Positions 5,183 through 14,550 of a DNA stretch of 64,000 nt are shown here, piece after piece. The DNA is taken from contig JAJDCU010000073.1 in NCBI GenBank assembly GCA_029260655.1, forward strand, positions 1-64,000, given 5' to 3'. Origin of the DNA: Phycisphaeraceae bacterium. Its GTDB lineage: Bacteria > Planctomycetota > Phycisphaerae > Phycisphaerales > Phycisphaeraceae. Each line of letters opens with the position of its first letter. Positions within the stretch are counted from its first letter, which is position 1. Made by a program: the position numbers and the translations under genes. The notes under the pieces are model-generated. The model had not been told where the DNA came from. It made no database searches and saw only the letters and a list, made by a program, of their open reading frames with translations.

Positions 5183-6820
5183 GTACCTCAGCGCCTCGAC
5201 CGGGTCGAGACGGGCGGCGAGTACCGCGGGGATCAACGCCCCGACGACGCTGGACAGGATCGCACCGAGCACAATAAAGAGGGCGTCGTAGAACTTGACT
5301 TTGTCGGGGATGCGGTCGAAGAAATAGGTCTGGGGGTCCCACATCTTGAAGCTGATTGCATGGTTGAGTTTGTACGCGAGGTCGCCGGCTCTATCCAGGC
5401 TGATCCACGCCCCGGCGAGCCCGGCAAGCATCAACACAAGCGCCCCCAGCACCGCAAACCTCAGCGCCTTGCGCCTGGGATACCCGATAGCTCCGCCCAC
5501 AACAGCGCCGATCAGTGCCCCGCCTCCAGCACACCAGGCGTAGTGCGCGCTCACACCCAAGTGGTTCGCCAGCCAGTACTGGATCTCGTTGAGGTGCCAG
5601 ACGATCCCGAGCGCAAGCGACAGGCCCAGCAGTGAGCCGACGACGCCGACCGCCAGCCCGTAGCCCAGGAACAGGCCCATGATGCCGCCCTGGCTCGCAC
5701 CGATCGCGCGGAGCACGCCGATGTCCCGCGTTTTCTCCAGCACCGTCATGTAGAACGTCGTCGCCACCATGACCACGGCGACGATGCTGATGATCACAAA
5801 GAGGAACGTCACCATGCCCTTCTCGTTCTTGACCGCGTTGATGAACTGGGCGTGTCGCTGTTTCCAGGTGCGCACCACGGGTGGGAACTGATCGGGGCGC
5901 GTCTCGAAAAAGCGCTTGACTTCTTCCTTCACGGCCCCGTGGACCTGTTCGAGGCTGTACTTCTCGGCCCCGCGCAGCACGAGCTCGGAGGTGCGCGCCG
6001 GCTTGACCGAGACCCCGGGCAGTGTTTCACCGGTCTCCGGGTCGATGTTCTCGGTTTTCTGGCCGTGCATCCCGAGCTTTTCTTGGAGGACGTCGAACCG
6101 GACGAATACCTGGCTCTTGTCGATGTCGTAGAGCCCGGACTTAAACTCGTTGACGACGGCCGCCTTGCCGTGCTCCGGGCCAAGGTTCGCAGGCGCGCCG
6201 CGCTCGGTCAGGGGCAGGAGGGTCAGGGTCGCCTGTGACTGGACGGCGCTTAGGCTGAAGTTGTATTGCCCGTGCTCGTCGCGGCGGTGCGCGGGGTTGA
6301 CCTCGATCCCGATGACCATCCCCGGCATGTCCAGGCCCTTGGGGTCGAGTGTCATCGCCAGTCGTTTAAGGTCGAAACCCTGAGGGACAGGATCCCCGGG
6401 GTCGGGCTCCAACCCGTAGCGGTCGAACATGTCGTTAGCCGACCACTGAAGGGTGTCTTCATAGCGGACGATCCTGGCGAAGCCTTCGGGTTCGATGCCC
6501 ATGATGTTGACGCCGATGGTCTGCCCGAACAGGTTGACCATCCCGAAGGTGGAGATGACAGGCGAGACAGCGTCGACCTCGTCAAGCTTCTCAAGCCGAA
6601 TCGAAAGGTCTTCGTAATGCGCGAACCCGGTCAGCGATTGCGCCGAGACGGTGACATCCCCGGTGAGCTGCTTGGCCGAGTCCTGGAGCATGTCCAGGAA
6701 CCCGCCCATGACGCTGATGACGATGATGACCATCGCCGTGCACAGCATCACCGCCAGCGCCGCAAACATCGGCCCGAGCTTGCGCCTTAGGTACTTCAGG
6801 ATGAGGGTAAGTTTGTACAT
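5177..6820 (-). CDS. LolC/LolE-type ABC transporter permease
   Basis: The 547-residue membrane protein starts at 'MYKLTLILKYLRRKLGPMF', followed at once by a first membrane helix (about 12-35), typical of LolC/E and FtsX-like permeases. A large periplasmic domain (about 40-330) is followed by the FtsX-type block 'FLFVIISIVAVVMVATTFYMTVLEKTRDIGVLRAIGAS' and further helices. It ends 'AARLDPVEALRYE', the usual tail of this family. It should pair with the LolD-like ATPase next to it. The two helices in the region 'GGALIGAVVGGAIG...LGALVLMLAGLAGAWI' look like an insertion. An in-frame upstream ATG at 6859 only adds translated repeat sequence, so I chose 6820. Confidence 0.9.
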   Translation of the reverse strand: MYKLTLILKYLRRKLGPMFAALAVMLCTAMVIIVISVMGGFLDMLQDSAKQLTGDVTVSAQSLTGFAHYEDLSIRLEKLDEVDAVSPVISTFGMVNLFGQTIGVNIMGIEPEGFARIVRYEDTLQWSANDMFDRYGLEPDPGDPVPQGFDLKRLAMTLDPKGLDMPGMVIGIEVNPAHRRDEHGQYNFSLSAVQSQATLTLLPLTERGAPANLGPEHGKAAVVNEFKSGLYDIDKSQVFVRFDVLQEKLGMHGQKTENIDPETGETLPGVSVKPARTSELVLRGAEKYSLEQVHGAVKEEVKRFFETRPDQFPPVVRTWKQRHAQFINAVKNEKGMVTFLFVIISIVAVVMVATTFYMTVLEKTRDIGVLRAIGASQGGIMGLFLGYGLAVGVVGSLLGLSLALGIVWHLNEIQYWLANHLGVSAHYAWCAGGGALIGAVVGGAIGYPRRKALRFAVLGALVLMLAGLAGAWISLDRAGDLAYKLNHAISFKMWDPQTYFFDRIPDKVKFYDALFIVLGAILSSVVGALIPAVLAARLDPVEALRYE

Positions 6821-6831
6821 GGAGGGAGGGG

Positions 6832-7292
6832 TGAACCGCCAAGACGCTGAGGACGCCAAGAAGAGAAGTCAGTCCACAGAGTAAACGATACGTTGGATGC
6901 CGTCCTTGAGTACGGGACATTGAAGTTGATCAGGAGGCCGAGTTGGCAATCCAAGGCCTTTAGATACGAAATCACTTGGGCCCGATGGATCGGGGCGATC
7001 TGATCCACGGTCTTTAGTTCAATAATGATCGCGCGTTCAACCAACAGGTCAATCCGGCCTTGCCCTATGTTCTGATCCCGGTAGCTCAAAGAGAAGGGGT
7101 GCTGCTGTTGGTAGGCAATCCCACGGTGGTCAAGTTCGACAGCCAAGGCAGATTCATAGACCGATTCAAGATAACCCGGGCCCAGTGCGCGGTGAACTTC
7201 GATGGCGGCCCCGATGACGTTGTGTGCGAGTCGGTCTGTCGTCTCGCTTGGCTCTTGCACTTTCTTGGCGTCCTCGGTGTCTTGGCGGTTCA
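6832..7292. mobile_element. 461-bp cassette with 31-bp terminal inverted repeats carrying a GxxExxY gene
   Basis: The left end (6832-6862, plus strand) and the right end (7292-7262, minus strand) both begin TGAACCGCCAAGAC and continue to GAGGACGCCAAGAA. They match at 29 of 31 positions. The unit sits exactly between lysS and the LolC/E-like gene. The lysS stop codon and the first ATG of the inner gene use bases at one edge, and the permease ATG lies 11 bases beyond the other edge. No transposase is present and no clear target duplication was seen. Mobility is therefore inferred from the symmetric ends and the position. Confidence 0.65.
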
Positions 7293-7296
7293 TCAT
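6869..7296 (-). pseudogene. GxxExxY family PD-(D/E)XK-like protein, frameshifted at 3' end
   Basis: The product matches the GxxExxY family of about 130 residues. It has 'NVIGAAIEVHRALGPGYLESVYESAL' (G-YL-E-SV-Y motif) and the nuclease-like core 'GRIDLLVERAIIIELKTVD' (D and E-x-K), and runs to 'GLLINFNVP'. There, near 6909-6916, the frame slips. The adjacent frame continues 'LKDGIQRIVYSVD' and stops at 6869, as expected for the family. The actual frame instead reads through the end repeat to a stop at 6796. One missing base, for example CCGGTACTC changed to CCGTACTC, explains this. The first codons (NRQDTEDAKK) are translated terminal repeat. The ATG at 7296 or 7293 overlaps the lysS stop. Function of the family is unknown. 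Confidence 0.8.
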
Positions 7297-8888
7297 TCCC
7301 CGGCCTCCCTCGGCCTCATCAGCGGGAAGAGGATCACGTCGCGGATGCTGCGTTGGCCGGTCAGGAGCATGACCAGACGGTCGATCCCCAGGCCCAGGCC
7401 GCCGGCGGGGGGCATGCCGACACGCAGCGCTTCGAGGAAATCTTCGTCCAGCGAGCGGAACGTGCTCTCCTCGTCGTCCGCGCCGGCGAGCTGTTCTTTG
7501 AACTTGGCCTCCTGGATGTCGGGATCGTTCAGCTCGGTGTACGCTGGGCCGATCTCCATCTCGCCGATGAACAGGTCCCACCTCTCGCAGAGGTCGGGGT
7601 TGTCCTTGCGTGGCCGGGTCAGCGGGCTGATCACGCTTGGGTAATCCATCACGAATGTCGGCTGAACGAGCCCGCCCTCGGCGGTCTCCTCAAACACCTC
7701 GTTGACGACCAGCCAGTCGTCCTTGCCCGCCTCTTTCAGGCCCAGCGACCGCGCTTTCTCACGGACCCGTCCGATGTCGGTCATCTCGAAGCCGTTGGCG
7801 CGCTGGAACAGGTCTGCGTAGGTCACGCGGGTAAACGGTTTTTGATAGTCGATCGCCGTGCCGCTCCACTCGATGATGCCGTCGCTGCTCAGCGTCATCG
7901 CCAGGTGGCGGATCAGGGATTCGGTCAGCTCCATCATGGTCTGGTAGTCGCCGAAGGCCTGGTAGACCTCCATGGCGGTGAACTCGGGGTTGTGCGAGCG
8001 GTCGACGCCTTCGTTTCGGAAGTTTCGGTTAATCTCGTAGACCCGAGGCAGCCCGCCGACCATGAGGCGCTTCAGGTACAGCTCGGGCGCGATCCTCAGG
8101 AACAGGGGGATGTCCAGCGCGTTGTGGTGCGTGTTAAACGGCCTGGCCGCGGCGCCTCCGGCGATCGGCTGAAGCATCGGCGTCTCGACCTCGAGGAACC
8201 CGCGAGCGTCCATGAACCGGCGGACCTCGCTGACGATCCGCGAGCGCTGCTGAAAGGTTTCGATCACTTCCGGGTTGGCGTACATATCGACGTAACGCTT
8301 GCGGTAGCGCTGCTCGGGGTCCTGCAATCCCTGGAACTTGTTTGGCGGTAGCGCCAAGCTCTTGGCGGCCACAGCGAAGGGTGGGTCGTTTGCGTTGTCC
8401 GTGTCGGCTTGGTCGCCGCTACCACCCTCTGCCGCTTGCGGCTTCGCGGTCGCCCACACCGTGATCTCCTGCGTCTTCGTCTTCGCCAACGGCCCCTGCG
8501 CGGTCACGATGTCCGACAACTCCACCAGCTTGGCGACCTTGAACGCCTCGGGCCCGACCAGCTTCTTACTCACCGCAAGCTGCAGGTCGCCTGACTGGTC
8601 GCGCAGGAGCATGAAGATCAGGTTGCCCATCACCCGGTGCTGCATGACCCGCCCGGCGACCTTCACCACAGGCCGGCGGTCGTCTTCGGGGTTGTCTTTG
8701 TGGGCTTGGTCGGCCTGCTGGTCGTATTGGCTTTTGGCGTCGGCGAGAGAGGTCAGCCCGTCGATCCGTCCGCCGAAAGGGTCGACCCCGAACTCGTCGC
8801 GTAGCCGGGTAAGCCTCGCCCGACGGTCTGCGAGCAGGTCGCGTGCCGAACGCTCGGGGGCCGGATTGTTCTCTTTTGGCGTGCTCAT
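7293..8888 (-). CDS. lysS: Lysyl-tRNA synthetase, class II
   Basis: The enzyme charges tRNA-Lys with lysine. The 531-residue protein has an N-terminal OB-fold anticodon-binding domain and the class II core. Motif 2 is 'FRNEGVDRSHNPEFTAMEVY' near residue 290 and motif 3 is 'GLGIDRLVMLLTGQRSIRDV' near the C-terminus. The ATG at 8888 is chosen because an upstream in-frame TTG adds only six residues. An insertion of about 25 Gly/Asp/Ala-rich residues ('PQAAEGGSGDQADTDNAND') interrupts the end of the OB domain. It is followed on the same strand by the GxxExxY cassette and the Lol-like ABC genes and preceded by rplS and its terminator. Confidence 0.97.
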   Translation of the reverse strand: MSTPKENNPAPERSARDLLADRRARLTRLRDEFGVDPFGGRIDGLTSLADAKSQYDQQADQAHKDNPEDDRRPVVKVAGRVMQHRVMGNLIFMLLRDQSGDLQLAVSKKLVGPEAFKVAKLVELSDIVTAQGPLAKTKTQEITVWATAKPQAAEGGSGDQADTDNANDPPFAVAAKSLALPPNKFQGLQDPEQRYRKRYVDMYANPEVIETFQQRSRIVSEVRRFMDARGFLEVETPMLQPIAGGAAARPFNTHHNALDIPLFLRIAPELYLKRLMVGGLPRVYEINRNFRNEGVDRSHNPEFTAMEVYQAFGDYQTMMELTESLIRHLAMTLSSDGIIEWSGTAIDYQKPFTRVTYADLFQRANGFEMTDIGRVREKARSLGLKEAGKDDWLVVNEVFEETAEGGLVQPTFVMDYPSVISPLTRPRKDNPDLCERWDLFIGEMEIGPAYTELNDPDIQEAKFKEQLAGADDEESTFRSLDEDFLEALRVGMPPAGGLGLGIDRLVMLLTGQRSIRDVILFPLMRPREAGE

Positions 8889-9002: not shown

Positions 9003-9037
9003 TGCTAATGGCTAAAAGCTATTGGCTAACGGCTCTT
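9003..9037. repeat. Heptanucleotide run GCTAATG/GCTAAAA/GCTATTG/GCTAACG
   Basis: Four consecutive 7-base units beginning GCTA end at the rplS stop codon. The same word family occurs at 14034-14055 (opposite orientation), 14125-14156 and, degraded, 39010-39045. Confidence 0.8.
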
Positions 9038-9500
9038 ATTCAGCGGTTTCGGCTTTTTCCGCAGCGGCTTGCTCGGCGGCCTTTTCCTTGGCTTCCTGCT
9101 CGGCACGGGCGGCGTCGGCCTTGTCCTGCTGATCGGTCAGCCAGCCCAGACCGCTTTTACGGTCACGCAGGCGACGCTTCTTGCCCACCCGCTCTCGCAG
9201 GTAATAAAGCTTGCTACGCCGGGTGTGGCCGTGACGCACAATCTCGAACTTCGCGACCCTCGGCGAGTGCACCGGGAATGTCCGCTCCACGCCCTCGTTC
9301 GCCACGATCCGACGGACCGTGATGGTCTGCTCGATCCCCGAGCCCTGGCGTTTGATGATCACGCCGGTGAACACCTGGATACGCTCCTTGGCGCCCTCGA
9401 TGATCCGCACGTGGACATCAACCGTGTCGCCGATGCTCAGCACCGGCCGGTCGGTCTTGATCTGGGACTGCTGGACCGCTTGAAGTATCGCGTCGCTCAT
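9036..9500 (-). CDS. rplS: 50S ribosomal protein L19
   Basis: The 154-residue protein carries the L19 core: 'RPVLSIGDTVDVHVRIIEGAKERIQVFTGVII', 'FPVHSPRVAKFEIVRHGHTRRSKLYYLRE' and 'GKKRRLRDR'. It ends in an Ala/Glu/Lys-rich tail of about 35 residues beyond the usual length of about 115. The ATG at 9500 has GGAAG upstream; a longer reading frame to 9671 lacks family similarity. L19 sits at the 30S/50S interface. Its usual operon partners trmD and rpsP are on the same strand but almost 4 kb away, separated by the oppositely oriented BlaI/M56 module. Confidence 0.97.
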   Translation of the reverse strand: MSDAILQAVQQSQIKTDRPVLSIGDTVDVHVRIIEGAKERIQVFTGVIIKRQGSGIEQTITVRRIVANEGVERTFPVHSPRVAKFEIVRHGHTRRSKLYYLRERVGKKRRLRDRKSGLGWLTDQQDKADAARAEQEAKEKAAEQAAAEKAETAE

Positions 9501-9662
9501 GGCGGGGCTTCCGTCAGGGGGTGTTTTTGCGTCTATACCGGGGGACCGGGCCCGCCGATTCGAGCCGAGCAGTATATCCGGGGCCCCATCCTCTGTCGAA
9601 CCTCTCGGACCCACCGGTCTCCCCGCCGCGACCGTTGATTCTCGGGCTCCACGAGATTGTGC

Positions 9663-9700
9663 TTGCATCACGACTACAGTTGTAATAGACTACATATGTA
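9663..9700 (+). promoter_or_regulatory. BlaI-type twin operator and promoter
   Basis: TACAGTTGTA (9675-9684) and the perfect palindrome TACATATGTA (9691-9700) both fit the TACA-N2-TGTA core bound by BlaI/MecI dimers. They are 16 bases apart, just before the BlaI-like gene. A possible promoter is TTGCAT (9663-9668), 17 bases, TAGACT (9686-9691), so bound repressor would cover it. This predicts autorepression of the blaI-M56 operon. Confidence 0.85.
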
Positions 9701-9715
9701 ATCAAAGGAGCCGCC

Positions 9716-10090
9716 ATGTCCAAGCCACCCAAAATCTCGGATGCCGAATGGCAGGTGATGCAGGTTCTGTGGGACCAGGCCCCGTTAAACGCCGCCGAGG
9801 TCGTCGAACGTTTGGCGGACCAGCAGGACTGGTCGCCACGGACGATCAAGACCATGCTCAGTCGACTCGTGCACAAGGGCGCGTTGGCTTACACCCAAGA
9901 GGGCAACCGGTATCTCTACCGTCCGGCGGTGACGCGGTCGGCATGCATCCGCGACGCGAGCCGATCGTTCCTGGGCCGTGTGTTTTCCGGGGACACACAA
10001 CTTCTGCTGGCGCATCTGGTCGAGTCTGGCCGGCTCTCGCGTGAAGACATCGAGACGCTCAAGAAGACTCTTGAAGACAAGGAGCATTAG
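9716..10090 (+). CDS. BlaI/MecI-family transcriptional repressor
   Basis: The 124-residue winged-helix protein begins 'KISDAEWQVMQVLWDQAPLNAAEVVERLA'. It continues 'WSPRTIKTMLSRLVHKGALAYTQEGNRYLYRPAV', the hallmark BlaI/MecI DNA-binding part, and has a C-terminal dimerisation helix region (about 80-124). Family members repress their own operon and are cleaved when a partner M56 protease senses a signal. An AAAGGAG ribosome-binding site precedes the ATG, twin operators lie just upstream, and the M56 gene starts 2 bases after the stop. The regulon may extend beyond this operon; no beta-lactamase is nearby. Confidence 0.95.
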   Translation: MSKPPKISDAEWQVMQVLWDQAPLNAAEVVERLADQQDWSPRTIKTMLSRLVHKGALAYTQEGNRYLYRPAVTRSACIRDASRSFLGRVFSGDTQLLLAHLVESGRLSREDIETLKKTLEDKEH

Positions 10091-10092
10091 CC

Positions 10093-13000
10093 ATGATCGA
10101 TTGGTTCAACGGATTGGAGTCGGGGTTACAAGCCGTATTGACCGCGTCATGGCAGGCGGCCGTGCTGGCGGTGATCGTGCTGGCCACACAGTCGGCGATG
10201 GGACGCTGGCTGTCACCGCGCTGGCGGTACGCGCTCTGGTCGGTCGTGGTGATCCGTTTGATGATGCCGATGGCGCCGGGCAGCGCGTTAAGCGTGTTCA
10301 ACCTGTTCAAGAGTGATCCTGCGCCTGCCGTCGTGGTCGCTCCACTGCCACCGACACCGACCATCGGCGAGATCACATACAGCCTGGACACCAGCGGGCC
10401 GAGTGTGACCGCACTTGCATCTGTCCCGTCATGGGGCATGGATGACATAATGCTGGCTGTCTGGCTGGCCGGCTTGGTCCTGATCTTCTCCGTCATCATC
10501 GCGATCAATCTGGCGCTTACGTTGCGCCTGCGCCGCCGAACCGCGATCACCGATCCAGACCTGCTTGACCTGGTCGAATCATGCAAACAAGAGATGGGCG
10601 TCCGCCGGAACGTCCATTTATACGACGATCCCCGAATCGCAAGCCCCGCGCTGGCGGGTGTCTTCCGCCCGTCGCTGCTGATCCCGCCGGGTCTGCTCGC
10701 TGATCTGCCACGGCAGGAACTGCGTTTCATCCTGCTGCACGAACTGGCCCATGTGAAGAAGCACGACATCGCGCAGAACTGGCTGCTTATCGCACTGAGC
10801 GCGGTCCACTGGTTCAACCCGATCGTCTGGTTCGCTTTCGCCCGGCTGCGTGCCGACCGTGAGCTGGCACGAGACGCGATGGTCCTTAGCACCACCGGGA
10901 CCGACGCCAATCAGGCCTACGGCCAAACGATCATCCACACCCTCGAACGCATCACCCACCCACGCCTGAATAATCCTGCGCTCGCCGGCATCGGCGACGG
11001 GCTAGGCCAACTCAAACGCCGCCTGCGCATGATCGCGCTCGCCCCCAAACGCCGACCCGCGCTCACCCTCACCGGCATCGTGCTGCTGGCCACCCTCGCC
11101 GCCATCGGCCTGACCGACGCCGCGGAGCCGGAGGCGGCAGTGATATCTGAAAGGGCATCAACTCAGACAATCGAAGAAGTCGAGGAGCCCGAGGCCGAGG
11201 TTGAGATTGATAAGTCGCCCACCGCGCGTTCAATACCACACGCCATCGACTCGCCCGCGCCGGTTCATTTTTACGAGAACCGCCTGGTGAGCGCCATCGA
11301 GTATCTGCGCAATGCCACCGGTGCGAATATCTATGTGAACTGGTCGGCGCTATCGGATCAGGGAATCACGCCGGAAACGAAGTTCACGCTGGAGATGCAA
11401 GGGGAAGGGGTGACCGGCCGGGCAGCGTTGTCACGCATCCTTGAGGTCGTTTCTACCGACGCGACTGAACGCGTCATTTTCGGTATCCGAGAAGGGGTTG
11501 TCATTGTCAGCACATTGACTGACATGGTCGCCACCCAGGTCAGTTATCCGATCGAGATACCGACGGAGGATCACGATCGTGAAGCGACCACGGCAGCGCT
11601 TCGTAAACTCAGCCAGCCGATACCGATCCAGTTCGAGCGCAATGATCTGGTCCATGTCATCAGGTATTTCAGTAAGCGGACCGGCGTAGACGTGTCCGTG
11701 AACTGGCAGGCTTTGGAGAAGGCGGGCGTTGATCAGGGCACGTCGATCACGTTGACGCTCAAGGATGTCAGCGCAAGTGAGGCGTTGCGGTTGATTCTTC
11801 ATCAGTTGGCCTACGACACCCCCGCCGATCGGATCGAGTTCCGTGTGATTGATGGGATCATCACCATCAGCACAGCGAGCGATCTGCCGAAACCGCCGAC
11901 CATGGAAGAGGTCCGTGCGGAGATCGATCGGTTGGTTGCTGAGAAGTTCCGACAGCCGATTGGGGTCGAATTAACCAATGCGCCGATGGATCGCGTGCTG
12001 AACATGTTCCGTGATGTGTGGGGCGTACCAGTGTTTGCAAATTGGCCGATGTTGAAACAGGCGGGGATCGACGCCCAGACGCAGGTGACACTCTCACTGC
12101 CAGACATGCCCGGCGATCAAGTACTGCGTTTGGTGTTGAAACAGGCGTCGGGCAAGCAAGGCCTCAATGCTCCCTCTTGGAATATCATCGATGGGGTCGT
12201 GAATATCAGCATAAAACGCGACTTCATGACCACGGACACCCGGGTGTACGACATCCGACACCTGCTGGCCGTCGATCACGAGCCCCCTCCGCTGGCCCCC
12301 CGCGCTGACGGCACGATCTCGGAACGACCGGCAAAGAAGAAACCGTCACGTGAAGAGCTGGTCGGCCAGATCGCCGATCTGATCCGCGAAACCGTGGGCT
12401 ACTATGAAGAATGGGAAGCCCATGGCGGCGGCATCAGTTCGGTCAGCGAACTGAAAGGCAACCTGATCGTCAAGACCTCGCCGGATAATCATGAGAACAT
12501 CACAAACCTGTTAGCGATGTTAGGCGAGGCGCGTTCGGTACAGATCAGCTTCGAGAGCCAATTTCTGCTTGTCCCCGAGCGATTTTTCGAGGCGTCCGGG
12601 CTCGGTATGGAACTCTCGCAGACGCCGGATGGCGACCACATCGCGTTTTTGGACGATCTGGAAGTGGGCATTATCACCAAGGCCATTCGGAACAATCCGT
12701 CCGCTCGGACTCTTGCCACCCCACGAGTCATGCTGTTAAATGGGCAGGGGGCCGACATTCTGATCGGCGAGCGTGTCTCATATCTGGCCGAATACAATCG
12801 GGTCGAGGGCGAGAACGGCACCGAATACAAGCCTGTACATCTTTTCCTCAATGATGGCGTCATGCTCGAGACGGAAGCGACAGTCAGCGCTGATCGGCGT
12901 TATGTCTCCGCGACATTGCACCCAACGGTAATCAACACGGCACACCCGACCGAAAAGCACCTATGGGACAATAGCCCACCCGATCAAGACCTTTATGTCG

Positions 13001-13215
13001 AGGTGCCCAAGTTCACGAAAGTAGAAAAAGAAATCACCGTTTCGATCCCGGATAAAGGAACCCTGCTGATCGATGTCGGCACCGTATCCGGCCCGATGAG
13101 TTCGCACGATCCGGTTGAGGAAGGCGTCGAACGGCGTGTCTACATGCTTGTTAAGCCGACGATCATTATTGTCACACCAAATGCCAAGCAGTTCCCCGGG
13201 TTGCTGGATGAGTAG
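10093..13215 (+). CDS. BlaR1-like M56 metalloprotease fused to STN repeats and a secretin-like domain
   Basis: The N-terminal part (1-345) is a BlaR1/MecR1-type M56 protease. It has helices at about 13-36, 46-61 and 118-141, the zinc site 'HELAH' at 216-220 with 'HD' following, 'ADRELARDAMVL', and a last helix at about 323-345. Instead of the usual penicillin-binding sensor, the exported part carries three repeats of about 115 residues starting near 387, 505 and 620. Each has a '(N/T)..(V/M).(V/A)I.YL/YF...TG..(I/V).VNW' core and resembles the secretin/TonB short N-terminal (STN) domain. Then come a 'TRVYDIRHLL' segment (about 715), an N1-like segment (753-815) and a secretin-like domain (817-1035) with 'ATPRVMLLNGQGADILIGE' near 875 and 'LVKPTIIIVTP' at the end. 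The secretin 'VPVLGDIP' motif is missing, so a pore is doubtful. It probably senses an envelope signal and cleaves the BlaI-like protein. Confidence 0.88.
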   Translation: MIDWFNGLESGLQAVLTASWQAAVLAVIVLATQSAMGRWLSPRWRYALWSVVVIRLMMPMAPGSALSVFNLFKSDPAPAVVVAPLPPTPTIGEITYSLDTSGPSVTALASVPSWGMDDIMLAVWLAGLVLIFSVIIAINLALTLRLRRRTAITDPDLLDLVESCKQEMGVRRNVHLYDDPRIASPALAGVFRPSLLIPPGLLADLPRQELRFILLHELAHVKKHDIAQNWLLIALSAVHWFNPIVWFAFARLRADRELARDAMVLSTTGTDANQAYGQTIIHTLERITHPRLNNPALAGIGDGLGQLKRRLRMIALAPKRRPALTLTGIVLLATLAAIGLTDAAEPEAAVISERASTQTIEEVEEPEAEVEIDKSPTARSIPHAIDSPAPVHFYENRLVSAIEYLRNATGANIYVNWSALSDQGITPETKFTLEMQGEGVTGRAALSRILEVVSTDATERVIFGIREGVVIVSTLTDMVATQVSYPIEIPTEDHDREATTAALRKLSQPIPIQFERNDLVHVIRYFSKRTGVDVSVNWQALEKAGVDQGTSITLTLKDVSASEALRLILHQLAYDTPADRIEFRVIDGIITISTASDLPKPPTMEEVRAEIDRLVAEKFRQPIGVELTNAPMDRVLNMFRDVWGVPVFANWPMLKQAGIDAQTQVTLSLPDMPGDQVLRLVLKQASGKQGLNAPSWNIIDGVVNISIKRDFMTTDTRVYDIRHLLAVDHEPPPLAPRADGTISERPAKKKPSREELVGQIADLIRETVGYYEEWEAHGGGISSVSELKGNLIVKTSPDNHENITNLLAMLGEARSVQISFESQFLLVPERFFEASGLGMELSQTPDGDHIAFLDDLEVGIITKAIRNNPSARTLATPRVMLLNGQGADILIGERVSYLAEYNRVEGENGTEYKPVHLFLNDGVMLETEATVSADRRYVSATLHPTVINTAHPTEKHLWDNSPPDQDLYVEVPKFTKVEKEITVSIPDKGTLLIDVGTVSGPMSSHDPVEEGVERRVYMLVKPTIIIVTPNAKQFPGLLDE

Positions 13216-13252
13216 GCCTAACTGTTAAGGGTACAACCTCATATACGGTAAG

Positions 13253-13276
13253 ACCGGCCGCGAGCGGCCGGGCTAA
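13253..13276. repeat. REP-like palindrome, copy 1
   Basis: CCGGCCGC-GAG-CGGCCGG followed by GCTAAG lies in the 70-base spacer between the convergent M56 and trmD genes. It is related to copies at 27314-27340, 29743-29768 and 58428-58447. It may also serve as a bidirectional transcription stop, but there is no T-tract. Confidence 0.6.
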
Positions 13277-13285
13277 GCGGGGGAG

Positions 13286-14041
13286 TCACTGGGGGGCATC
13301 CCCCAGCAGGTCCGGCCGGCGTTCTTCGGTGCGCTTGCGGGCTTCGGCCTCGCGCCAGGCTTCGATCTTGGCGTGGTTACCGCTTAAGAGGACTTCGGGG
13401 GCTTCCATGCCTTCCCACGTTCGGGGGCGGGTGTAGTGGGGGTGGTCCAGGAGGCGCTGGGCGCCGGGTGAGAAGCTGTCGTGGTGGGCGGAGTCCTGAT
13501 GGCCAAGCGCCCCCGGAAGTAAGCGCACCACCGCATCAATCAAGACCATCGCGGGGAGTTCGCCGCCGGAGAGGACGTAGTCGCCGACGCTGATTTCGCG
13601 GATGGGGGCGAGTTTTTCGATGACGCGCTCGTCGATGCCCTCGTAGTGGCCTGCGATCATCAGGAGGCGCGGTTGCCCGGCGAGTTCCTCGACGATCGGT
13701 TGTGTCAGCGGTTCGCCTTGAGGGGTGAGCAGGATGCGCGTGGCGGGGCGGTCGTCTTGCGCTTCGACGGCCTGCACGGCGTCCCAGACAGGCTGACACT
13801 GGATGACCATCCCGGGTCCGCCGCCGAAGGAGGGTTGGTCGACTTTCTGGTGCTTGTTGCCGGCATAGTCGCGGATGTCGGTGACGTGGTAGCTGACGAC
13901 CGGCTGGCGAATGTCGTTGGGATCGGCGGGATTGACGACGGGTTCTGCGGCGCGCTTGAGGATGCTCGATCCGAGCACGCCGGGGAACATCTCTGGGAAG
14001 AGTGTGAGGACGTCGATGCGGAGGGGGGGTGATGTAGCCAT
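13286..14041 (-). CDS. trmD: tRNA (guanine37-N1)-methyltransferase
   Basis: TrmD methylates G37 of tRNAs to prevent frameshifting. The 251-residue protein has the SPOUT/TrmD features: '[24 protein letters not shown]', '[22 protein letters not shown]', '[17 protein letters not shown]' and '[23 protein letters not shown]', which form the knotted SAM pocket. The start codon at 14041 lies within a heptanucleotide run, so MATS may be repeat-derived. It follows rpsP on the same strand with an intervening terminator. rimM, usually between them, is absent, and rplS is displaced. Confidence 0.97.
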
Positions 14042-14055
14042 TAGCCGTTAGCTGA
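14034..14055. repeat. Heptanucleotide run (TAGCCAT TAGCCGT TAGC) over trmD start
   Basis: The run is the reverse complement of the GCTAATG/GCTAACG words found at 14125-14156. The two runs face each other across the 70-base spacer that contains the rpsP terminator and could pair in RNA. Confidence 0.7.
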
Positions 14056-14074
14056 GGGCGATGTGTGAGCGGGT

Positions 14075-14118
14075 AAAAAAACAATCCCACGGAAGTCCGC
14101 TGCGCGGCCATCCGTGGG
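14075..14118 (-). terminator. Rho-independent terminator between rpsP and trmD
   Basis: On the minus strand CCCACGGA (14118-14111) pairs with TCCGTGGG (14093-14086) around a GC-rich loop. This is followed by ATTG and a run of seven T (14081-14075). It probably ends or attenuates the rpsP transcript before trmD. Confidence 0.75.
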
Positions 14119-14124
14119 CATCTG

Positions 14125-14156
14125 TGCTAATGGCTAACCGCTAACGGCTGATGGCT
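14125..14156. repeat. Heptanucleotide run after rpsP
   Basis: The units GCTAATG, GCTAACC, GCTAACG and GCTGATG in exact 7-base steps run up to the rpsP stop codon at 14159. Confidence 0.8.
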
Positions 14157-14158
14157 TT

Positions 14159-14422
14159 TTAGGCCTTCTTCGCGGCTTCGATGACGCCGGCCTTTTTCAG
14201 CAGGGCGGCGACGGTTTCGCTGGGCTGGGCGCCGACGCTCAGCCAGTACTTGACGCGCTCTTCGTCGCACTTGAACTGAACCGATTCGTCCGAGTTGGCC
14301 GGGTCATAGGTGCCCAGTTCCTCGATCGGCTTGCCATCGCGGGGGTTGCGCTGGTCGATGGCGTTGAGCCGATAGACCGGGTGATGCGTGCGTCCAAAGC
14401 GCTTGAATCGAAGCTTGACCAC
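14159..14422 (-). CDS. rpsP: 30S ribosomal protein S16
   Basis: The 87-residue product matches S16 over its length: 'VKLRFKRFGRTHHPVYRLNAIDQRNPRDGKPIEELGTYDP' and 'VKYWLSVGAQPSETVAALLKKAG'. It starts at GTG 14422 with AAAGG eight bases upstream. A longer in-frame ATG at 14530 adds unrelated sequence and is rejected. S16 binds 16S rRNA during 30S assembly. trmD is the next gene downstream. Confidence 0.96.
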   Translation of the reverse strand: MVKLRFKRFGRTHHPVYRLNAIDQRNPRDGKPIEELGTYDPANSDESVQFKCDEERVKYWLSVGAQPSETVAALLKKAGVIEAAKKA

Positions 14423-14550
14423 AGTTAAACCTTTGTTTTGGCTAGGGATACGTCCCGTCGAGCACCGCCGACACCCACCGCGTCGGCCCAGCGAATCGAA
14501 GATTGTAGCCGATTTACGTGGATGGGCCAAGCGGGGGATCGGATGTTGGC

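Follow-up and report, generated by a model that had tools for sequence, protein, structure and literature searches.

In the 64,000-nucleotide window analysed here (positions 1 to 64,000 of the forward strand of contig JAJDCU010000073.1, from a Phycisphaeraceae bacterium of the class Phycisphaerae and order Phycisphaerales), a blaI-like repressor gene and the gene of an M56 membrane protease are separated by 2 bp and form a two-gene operon downstream of two operators of the motif TACANNTGTA. The operon has every part of the BlaR1 chassis, and its sensor is a secretin lacking the elements that insert into the outer membrane. BlaR1/BlaI is the textbook case of signal-gated repressor proteolysis and is known from penicillin detection in staphylococci; the characterized members found in the literature sense β-lactams. 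The operon of the window is a real, recurrent variant of BlaR1/BlaI signalling that is undescribed as far as the literature searched shows: no paper combining M56 with secretin or STN was found, and a search for BlaI and secretin was swamped by unrelated papers, which makes this weak evidence.

A preliminary description of the window, made from its letters, had placed the gene pair at 9716-13215, and its frames and coordinates proved exact; both products were assigned by Pfam and structure matches. The Pfam family Penicillinase_R matches the winged-helix repressor (2e-35), which also matches the structures of MecI and BlaI end to end over its full length. Peptidase_M56 covers residues 15 to 314 of the protease (3.6e-59), and BlaR1 structures match residues 29 to 327. 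The protease carries the HExxH...ExxxD signature and the conserved Arg residue of the BlaR1/MecR1 proteases, and His216, Glu217, His220, Glu257, Asp261, and Arg310 do not vary among 45 diverse M56 proteins. As described, the HELAH-bearing protease continues into about 700 exported residues (approximately 695 as measured). Pfam finds no transpeptidase or penicillin-binding (class-D β-lactamase-like) domain in the M56 protein; together with the M56 and BlaI matches, this supports the earlier proposal of a proteolytic switch without a penicillin sensor, in which the sensor is made of secretin parts.

The two operators reported upstream of blaI were found there (Table 1). Because the 3.5-Mb genome contains six TACANNTGTA sites in total and two of these lie 16 bp apart before blaI, the tandem arrangement is far beyond chance. 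This genome (G000), G005, and G049 each contain the tandem pair once, a degenerate pair precedes blaI in G134, a pair with wider spacing precedes it in G180, and tandem operators are conserved across three families. A wider BlaI regulon was considered and rejected: of the other four sites in the genome, two are intragenic, one overlaps a gene end, and the fourth stands alone ahead of an acetyl-CoA synthetase-like gene. A relaxed operator motif showed no genome-wide excess over its reversed control. This survey points to self-regulation and names no target gene beyond the blaI-M56 operon.

Table 1. Coordinates in the window of the blaI-M56 operon, its operators, and the domains of the M56 protein
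Feature	Position	Strand	Remarks
BlaI-type operator 1, TACAGTTGTA	9675..9684		motif TACANNTGTA; 16-bp tandem spacing kept in G005 and, in degenerate form, in G049 and G134
BlaI-type operator 2, TACATATGTA	9691..9700		ACTACANNTGTAATC: sole exact match genome-wide
blaI-like repressor gene	9716..10090	+	124 aa; sole PF03965 protein found in genome
M56 protease gene with STN repeats and secretin-like domain	10093..13215	+	1040 aa; sole M56 protein found in genome
M56 (BlaR1-type) membrane protease domain	10135..11034	+	aa 15-314; Pfam and BlaR1 structure match
STN/N0-like domain 1	11239..11535	+	aa 383-481; sequence comparison and AlphaFold2 model
STN/N0-like domain 2	11599..11892	+	aa 503-600; DotD, Z 9.3
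STN/N0-like domain 3	11941..12240	+	aa 617-716; EscC N0, PilQ N0, FpvA signalling domain, Z 8-9
N1-like domain	12235..12537	+	aa 715-815; ~50% identical to resident secretin over best-conserved part
Secretin-like domain	12544..13203	+	aa 818-1037; without lip insertion and VPxLxxIP loop, gate region kept
Gaps in secretin-like domain			lip, ~aa 830-855; VPxLxxIP loop, ~aa 1004-1013
FPGLL tail	13192..13206	+	common to resident TPR-STN-secretin

Domain structure of the exported part

The exported part of the M56 protein consists of three STN/N0 domains, an N1-like domain, and a secretin domain. Searched against the secretin families, it matches PF00263 at residues 865 to 993 above the cut-off (2.2e-8; 34.3 bits against 27.5), with only positions 2 to 119 of the 169 in the profile being covered. 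The landmarks ATPRVMLLNGQ and LVKPTIIIVTP are present and VPVLGDIP is missing, and alignment agrees with the preliminary description on each. A profile built on the exported part retrieves PilQ, BfpB, pIV, and GspD from sequence alone.

An AlphaFold2 model of the exported part was built from 16 sequences (mean predicted local distance difference test score, 76; predicted template modeling score [pTM], 0.39); at this pTM, the individual domains are usable but their arrangement relative to one another is not. The model contains three STN-type repeats, one N1-type domain, and a β-rich C-terminal domain. Structure prediction had been suggested as a check, and the best 32 Foldseek matches of the model are all secretins (E = 2.2e-14 to 1e-6). 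In a second structural alignment, the C-terminal part lies on GspD, pIV, and PilQ (Z = 10 to 12), repeat 3 lies on the N0 domains of secretins and on the signalling domain of FpvA (Z = 8 to 9; FpvA, 8.2), and repeat 2 lies on DotD (Z = 9.3). Model and fold matches thus both place the N0/N1-type periplasmic domains of the secretin family in the exported part. The Pfam STN model scores 0.0018, which is below the cut-off, and each of the three repeats aligns with the STN domain of the resident secretin described below at 34 to 46% identity (E = 1e-13 to 1e-51). Because of this alignment and the fold matches of the model, the three STN-like repeats first described are real despite the subthreshold Pfam score.

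The match of repeat 3 to FpvA would also suit STN domains that read a TonB-dependent transducer, as the signalling domains of FecA and FpvA do. We consider this very improbable: the STN domains of secretins are the closest sequence relatives, Pfam finds no TonB-receptor plug or barrel in the M56 protein, and no PF07715 plug domain was found in the whole genome, which is 95% complete. Of the partners originally listed (a secretin, a pilus, TonB, or another), the secretin is thus favored, by the origin of the sensor and the deletions described below, and TonB is disfavored by the lack of a plug domain in the genome.

Origin of the exported part

The resident TPR-STN-secretin (1155 aa; G000:C9, L022 8985-12452) consists of a TPR region, one STN domain, an N1 domain, and a secretin domain. 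Nearly all genomes of the order encode a secretin of this type, with approximately 1150 residues, and it is conserved across the class; the gene is single-copy in this genome, and the secretin is present in all 14 of the fusion- or STN-carrying genomes checked. Its STN domain matches all three sensor repeats, and it shares with the fused protein the N1 domain (~50% identity over the best part), the secretin domain, and the C-terminal FPGLL. Since all of these modules match, the exported part can be traced by sequence comparison to the lineage of the resident TPR-STN-secretin. The gene of this secretin lies near obg- and mnmE-like genes. The other secretins of the genome, as assigned from sequence, are a PilQ-like protein in a pilM-N-O-P-like operon and two GspD-like proteins in operons resembling those of the type II secretion system (T2SS).

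The fused modules also track the secretins of their own genomes. With the lost loop left out of the comparison, 7 of 12 genomes had a fused module whose best score was with the secretin of the same genome (permutation p, ~5e-5). A column-permuted control that kept the composition gave 0.7 such matches in 12 on average, and composition therefore does not explain the closeness. The nearest standalone secretin belongs to the same family for 10 of 13 fused modules, against 2.8 expected, and the four top standalone matches of the secretin module in the window all come from its own family. A mixture-model tree joins fused and resident modules in G134 and in G153 with strong support, on long branches. 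Most fused modules are separate from the standalone secretins in a quick FastTree tree, whose model is the poorer one, and on the long branches an approximately unbiased test of a single clade for the fused modules was borderline (p = 0.0504). Such own-genome tracking would result from repeated capture, from gene conversion, or from co-evolution, but not from a single old fusion after which the modules drifted independently.

Elements lost from the fused secretin modules

Two elements are missing from the fused modules. All 22 standalone secretins of the class have the VPxLxxIP loop (VPxLxKxP...RLFTN), and none of the 14 secretin modules borne by M56 proteins does, a count in which four variant loops were checked by eye. 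The distance from the strand that ends N1 to the APR motif is 95 to 119 aa in the 20 measurable standalone secretins and 53 to 61 aa in 10 of the 11 measurable fused modules, which have approximately 50 residues fewer at the lip; in the M56 protein of the window it is 56 aa. When aligned to f1 pIV, the missing stretch directly precedes pIV residue 233, and the extracellular part of the pIV barrel consists of residues 199 to 234 (PMC8563730). Because the gap is thus placed in the extracellular barrel part, the ~50 residues missing before the APR motif correspond in this alignment to the secretin lip. Their identification as the central gate was rejected, as the gates follow the APR motif in XcpD and pIV (PMC10550240, PMC8563730); the gate region, C-terminal to this motif, is kept in the fused module.

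The VPxLxxIP stretch is taken as the putative amphipathic loop that inserts into the outer membrane because it is the most conserved stretch of the family. The lip segment and, presumably, this loop are the two elements by which secretins enter the outer membrane. Since the fused module is attached to inner-membrane helices, it is unlikely to form a gated multimeric channel in the outer membrane. A 353-residue lipoprotein-like protein of G041 (L035 6340-7401), which has an N1-type domain and a secretin core without an M56 part, carries the identical two deletions.

Locus history and distribution

The blaI-M56 pair is inserted in the opposite orientation between rplS and trmD-rpsP (window 9036-14530). 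The order rplS-blaI-M56-trmD is conserved in G005, the M56 protein of which is 73% identical over 816 aa, and the trmD side of the locus is conserved in G001. In G002, trmD and rplS are adjacent, with an empty site between them, while G004 has a different reading frame at the site. The last ~43 codons of the fusion remain beside trmD in G003 (G003:C166, L247 1220-1420), and an unrelated gene occupies the place of the missing part. Given the empty site, the remnant, and a replaced C terminus in G005, the system is dispensable and its sensor is fast evolving. Beside lysS, the window contains an open reading frame (6796-7581), the C-terminal half of which resembles a GxxExxY family protein.

The preliminary description had allowed for a chimera created by misassembly. 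This is excluded by the synteny in G005 and G001, the empty site in G002, the remnant in G003, and fusion orthologues in independent assemblies. The same synteny and orthologues, together with the missing transpeptidase domain, make it hardly credible that the fusion is a β-lactam sensor or an artefact, even though its M56 half resembles BlaR1.

That the fusion might be unique to this genome was also rejected, as it recurs in relatives. The survey of M56 proteins proposed at the outset covered 108 M56 reading frames of the class; these had been ranked by how similar they are to the M56 protein of the window and are hence a nonrandom sample. Eleven of them, including this one, carry a secretin-like module and seven more carry STN repeats only, i.e., 18 of 108 together, and the fusions occur in seven families of the class (f1, f5, f6, f9, f11, f20, and f24). 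Outside the class, the fusions recur in Verrucomicrobiota: Verrucomicrobium sp. BvORR106 has an M56 protein with a secretin and a Victivallaceae genome has one with STN; the exported parts of both match the Amuc_1098 pilus secretin family (7e-16 and 6e-34). Other M56 proteins export β-propellers or ExbD, carboxypeptidase-regulatory, SLBB, LysM, or amidase domains. Among these members, L027 7944-11507, L028 5906-8233, and others have SLBB (Wza-type), LysM, or ExbD domains as further envelope-related modules.

Proposed mechanism and alternatives

We tentatively favor, at slightly less than even confidence, a truncated-secretin sensor mounted on a regulated-proteolysis switch of the BlaR1/BlaI type; the ligand is inferred, as are BlaI cleavage and any targets beyond the operon. 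What the M56 sensor reads is probably the state of the resident secretin or of its machine; a secretin partner is favored because the sensor parts come from the resident secretin and have lost its outer-membrane elements. BlaI would bind the two tandem operators and repress its own operon. Located in the inner membrane, the M56 protein would expose its zinc-protease site to the cytoplasm and hold the three N0/STN domains, the N1 domain, and the secretin core in the periplasm. With both elements for outer-membrane entry lost, the core is expected to stay at the inner membrane, where it could retain the contacts of secretins with each other or with their partners. Secretin subunits or periplasmic partners in the wrong state or amount (e.g., unassembled or mislocalized) would engage this mimic, upon which the M56 dimer would be activated as in BlaR1, BlaI would be cleaved, and the operon would be derepressed. 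In BlaR1, the dimeric M56 protease cleaves BlaI directly upon a change in the state of the sensor (PMC9834060).

Several observations weigh against this mechanism. For the M56 protein of the window, the resident secretin comes only 12th among 22, and one fused module (G145) retains the lip spacing. The G005 orthologue retains STN and N1 but has exchanged its secretin domain for ~300 unrelated residues (L024 6997-7899; no Pfam or NCBIfam match), and because of this replacement the secretin core is not indispensable. STN modules also occur on PadR-linked HAAS proteins and on anti-sigma/von Willebrand A (vWA) proteins and may be generic interaction modules. The genome-wide TACANNTGTA scan found no further operator at secretin, pilus, or T2SS genes. 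The scissile bond of the staphylococcal repressor is of the Asn101-Phe102 type (PMC9834060), and the residues aligned with it here are His100-Leu101 (H-L, not N-F), so that the hydrophobic P1' residue is kept and the identity is not.

Beside these points stand two related observations. The C-terminal end of the G005 orthologue (LTKQIGLTFTVERRVEDIWVISEKP) resembles STN. In L023 (7556-8662 and 8697-9050; G000:C53), a PadR-type regulator adjoins a HAAS-domain membrane protein with one STN repeat of the same family, and this pair is a second regulator scaffold with an STN module; L030 5612-9376 and L031 3883-9489 combine an anti-sigma-like N terminus, STN repeats, and a vWA-like domain.

The main rival explanation, which we regard as quite possible without holding it probable, takes the STN and secretin parts as a generic exported binding scaffold. 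The M56 protein would then be a BlaR1-type sensor of another periplasmic ligand (peptidoglycan, a polysaccharide, or another protein), with secretin ancestry as only the source of the domains. The great diversity of exported domains on M56 proteins of this and related groups, the same STN repeat on HAAS and anti-sigma/vWA proteins, the swapped secretin part of G005, and the added LysM domain of L028 all fit such a scaffold, but it does not by itself predict that the same two outer-membrane elements would be lost in different lineages or that the modules would track the secretin of their own genome.

A main role of the M56 protein in assembling or anchoring the secretin machine at the inner membrane, with BlaI capping its level and the protease adjusting its own abundance via BlaI, would account for the only tandem operator of the genome belonging to its own operon, and the barrel and gate parts remaining in the secretin core could allow it to dock into a ring. 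We consider such a role improbable: the pair is absent or a remnant in congeners, yet G003 and G004 keep the secretin, so that it is not needed for assembly, and elsewhere the pairing of BlaI with M56 is a sensor arrangement.

The truncated-secretin sensor can be extended to a fuller account, which is possible but which we rather doubt, in which Phycisphaerae and their relatives repeatedly obtained dedicated secretin sensors: a copy of their own secretin was placed on a protease of the BlaR1 type, and its outer-membrane elements were deleted. The mimic would bind unassembled or mislocalized subunits and trigger repressor cleavage as a secretin-stress response unrelated to Psp. According to PMC5596341, Psp proteins form complexes with mislocalized secretins at the inner membrane, and in that respect they may serve by analogy as a precedent for sensing such secretins there. 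If the account is true, the BlaR1 chassis is used across a whole class to sense the state of a giant outer-membrane channel, the channel itself having supplied the sensor, and cells have a second, unrelated way to detect failed secretin assembly. The fusions would also provide a natural set of secretin cores without membrane-inserting parts, useful for probing the role of those parts, and the parallel deletions give clear, testable predictions.

Comparison with known systems

The operon shares with BlaR1-BlaI and MecR1-MecI of Staphylococcus and Bacillus the adjacent blaI and M56 genes, the TACANNTGTA operators, a homologous repressor and protease, and the same catalytic residues. It differs in having no penicillin-binding sensor and no β-lactamase or mecA target, in its exported STN, N1, and secretin domains, and in the residues at the cleavage position of the repressor. 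By both sequence and fold, the N0, N1, and secretin domains resemble those of PilQ, MshL, GspD, and Amuc_1098, whereas here they are fused to a polytopic inner-membrane protease and the lip segment and VPxLxxIP are missing. Within the genome, the STN, N1, and secretin modules have their closest relative in the resident TPR-STN-secretin, which has the same FPGLL tail; unlike the fused protein, this secretin has its own exported TPR N terminus and all of the outer-membrane elements, and it has no protease.

The STN fold serves signalling across the envelope in FecA and FpvA as well, although the M56 protein has no TonB barrel and no plug domain was found in its genome. Like the Psp response (PspB, PspC, and their partners), which works at the inner membrane and involves complexes with mislocalized secretins (PMC5596341), the proposed switch would act at that membrane; Psp has neither a protease nor BlaI, and the parallel would be a functional one without sequence relation.

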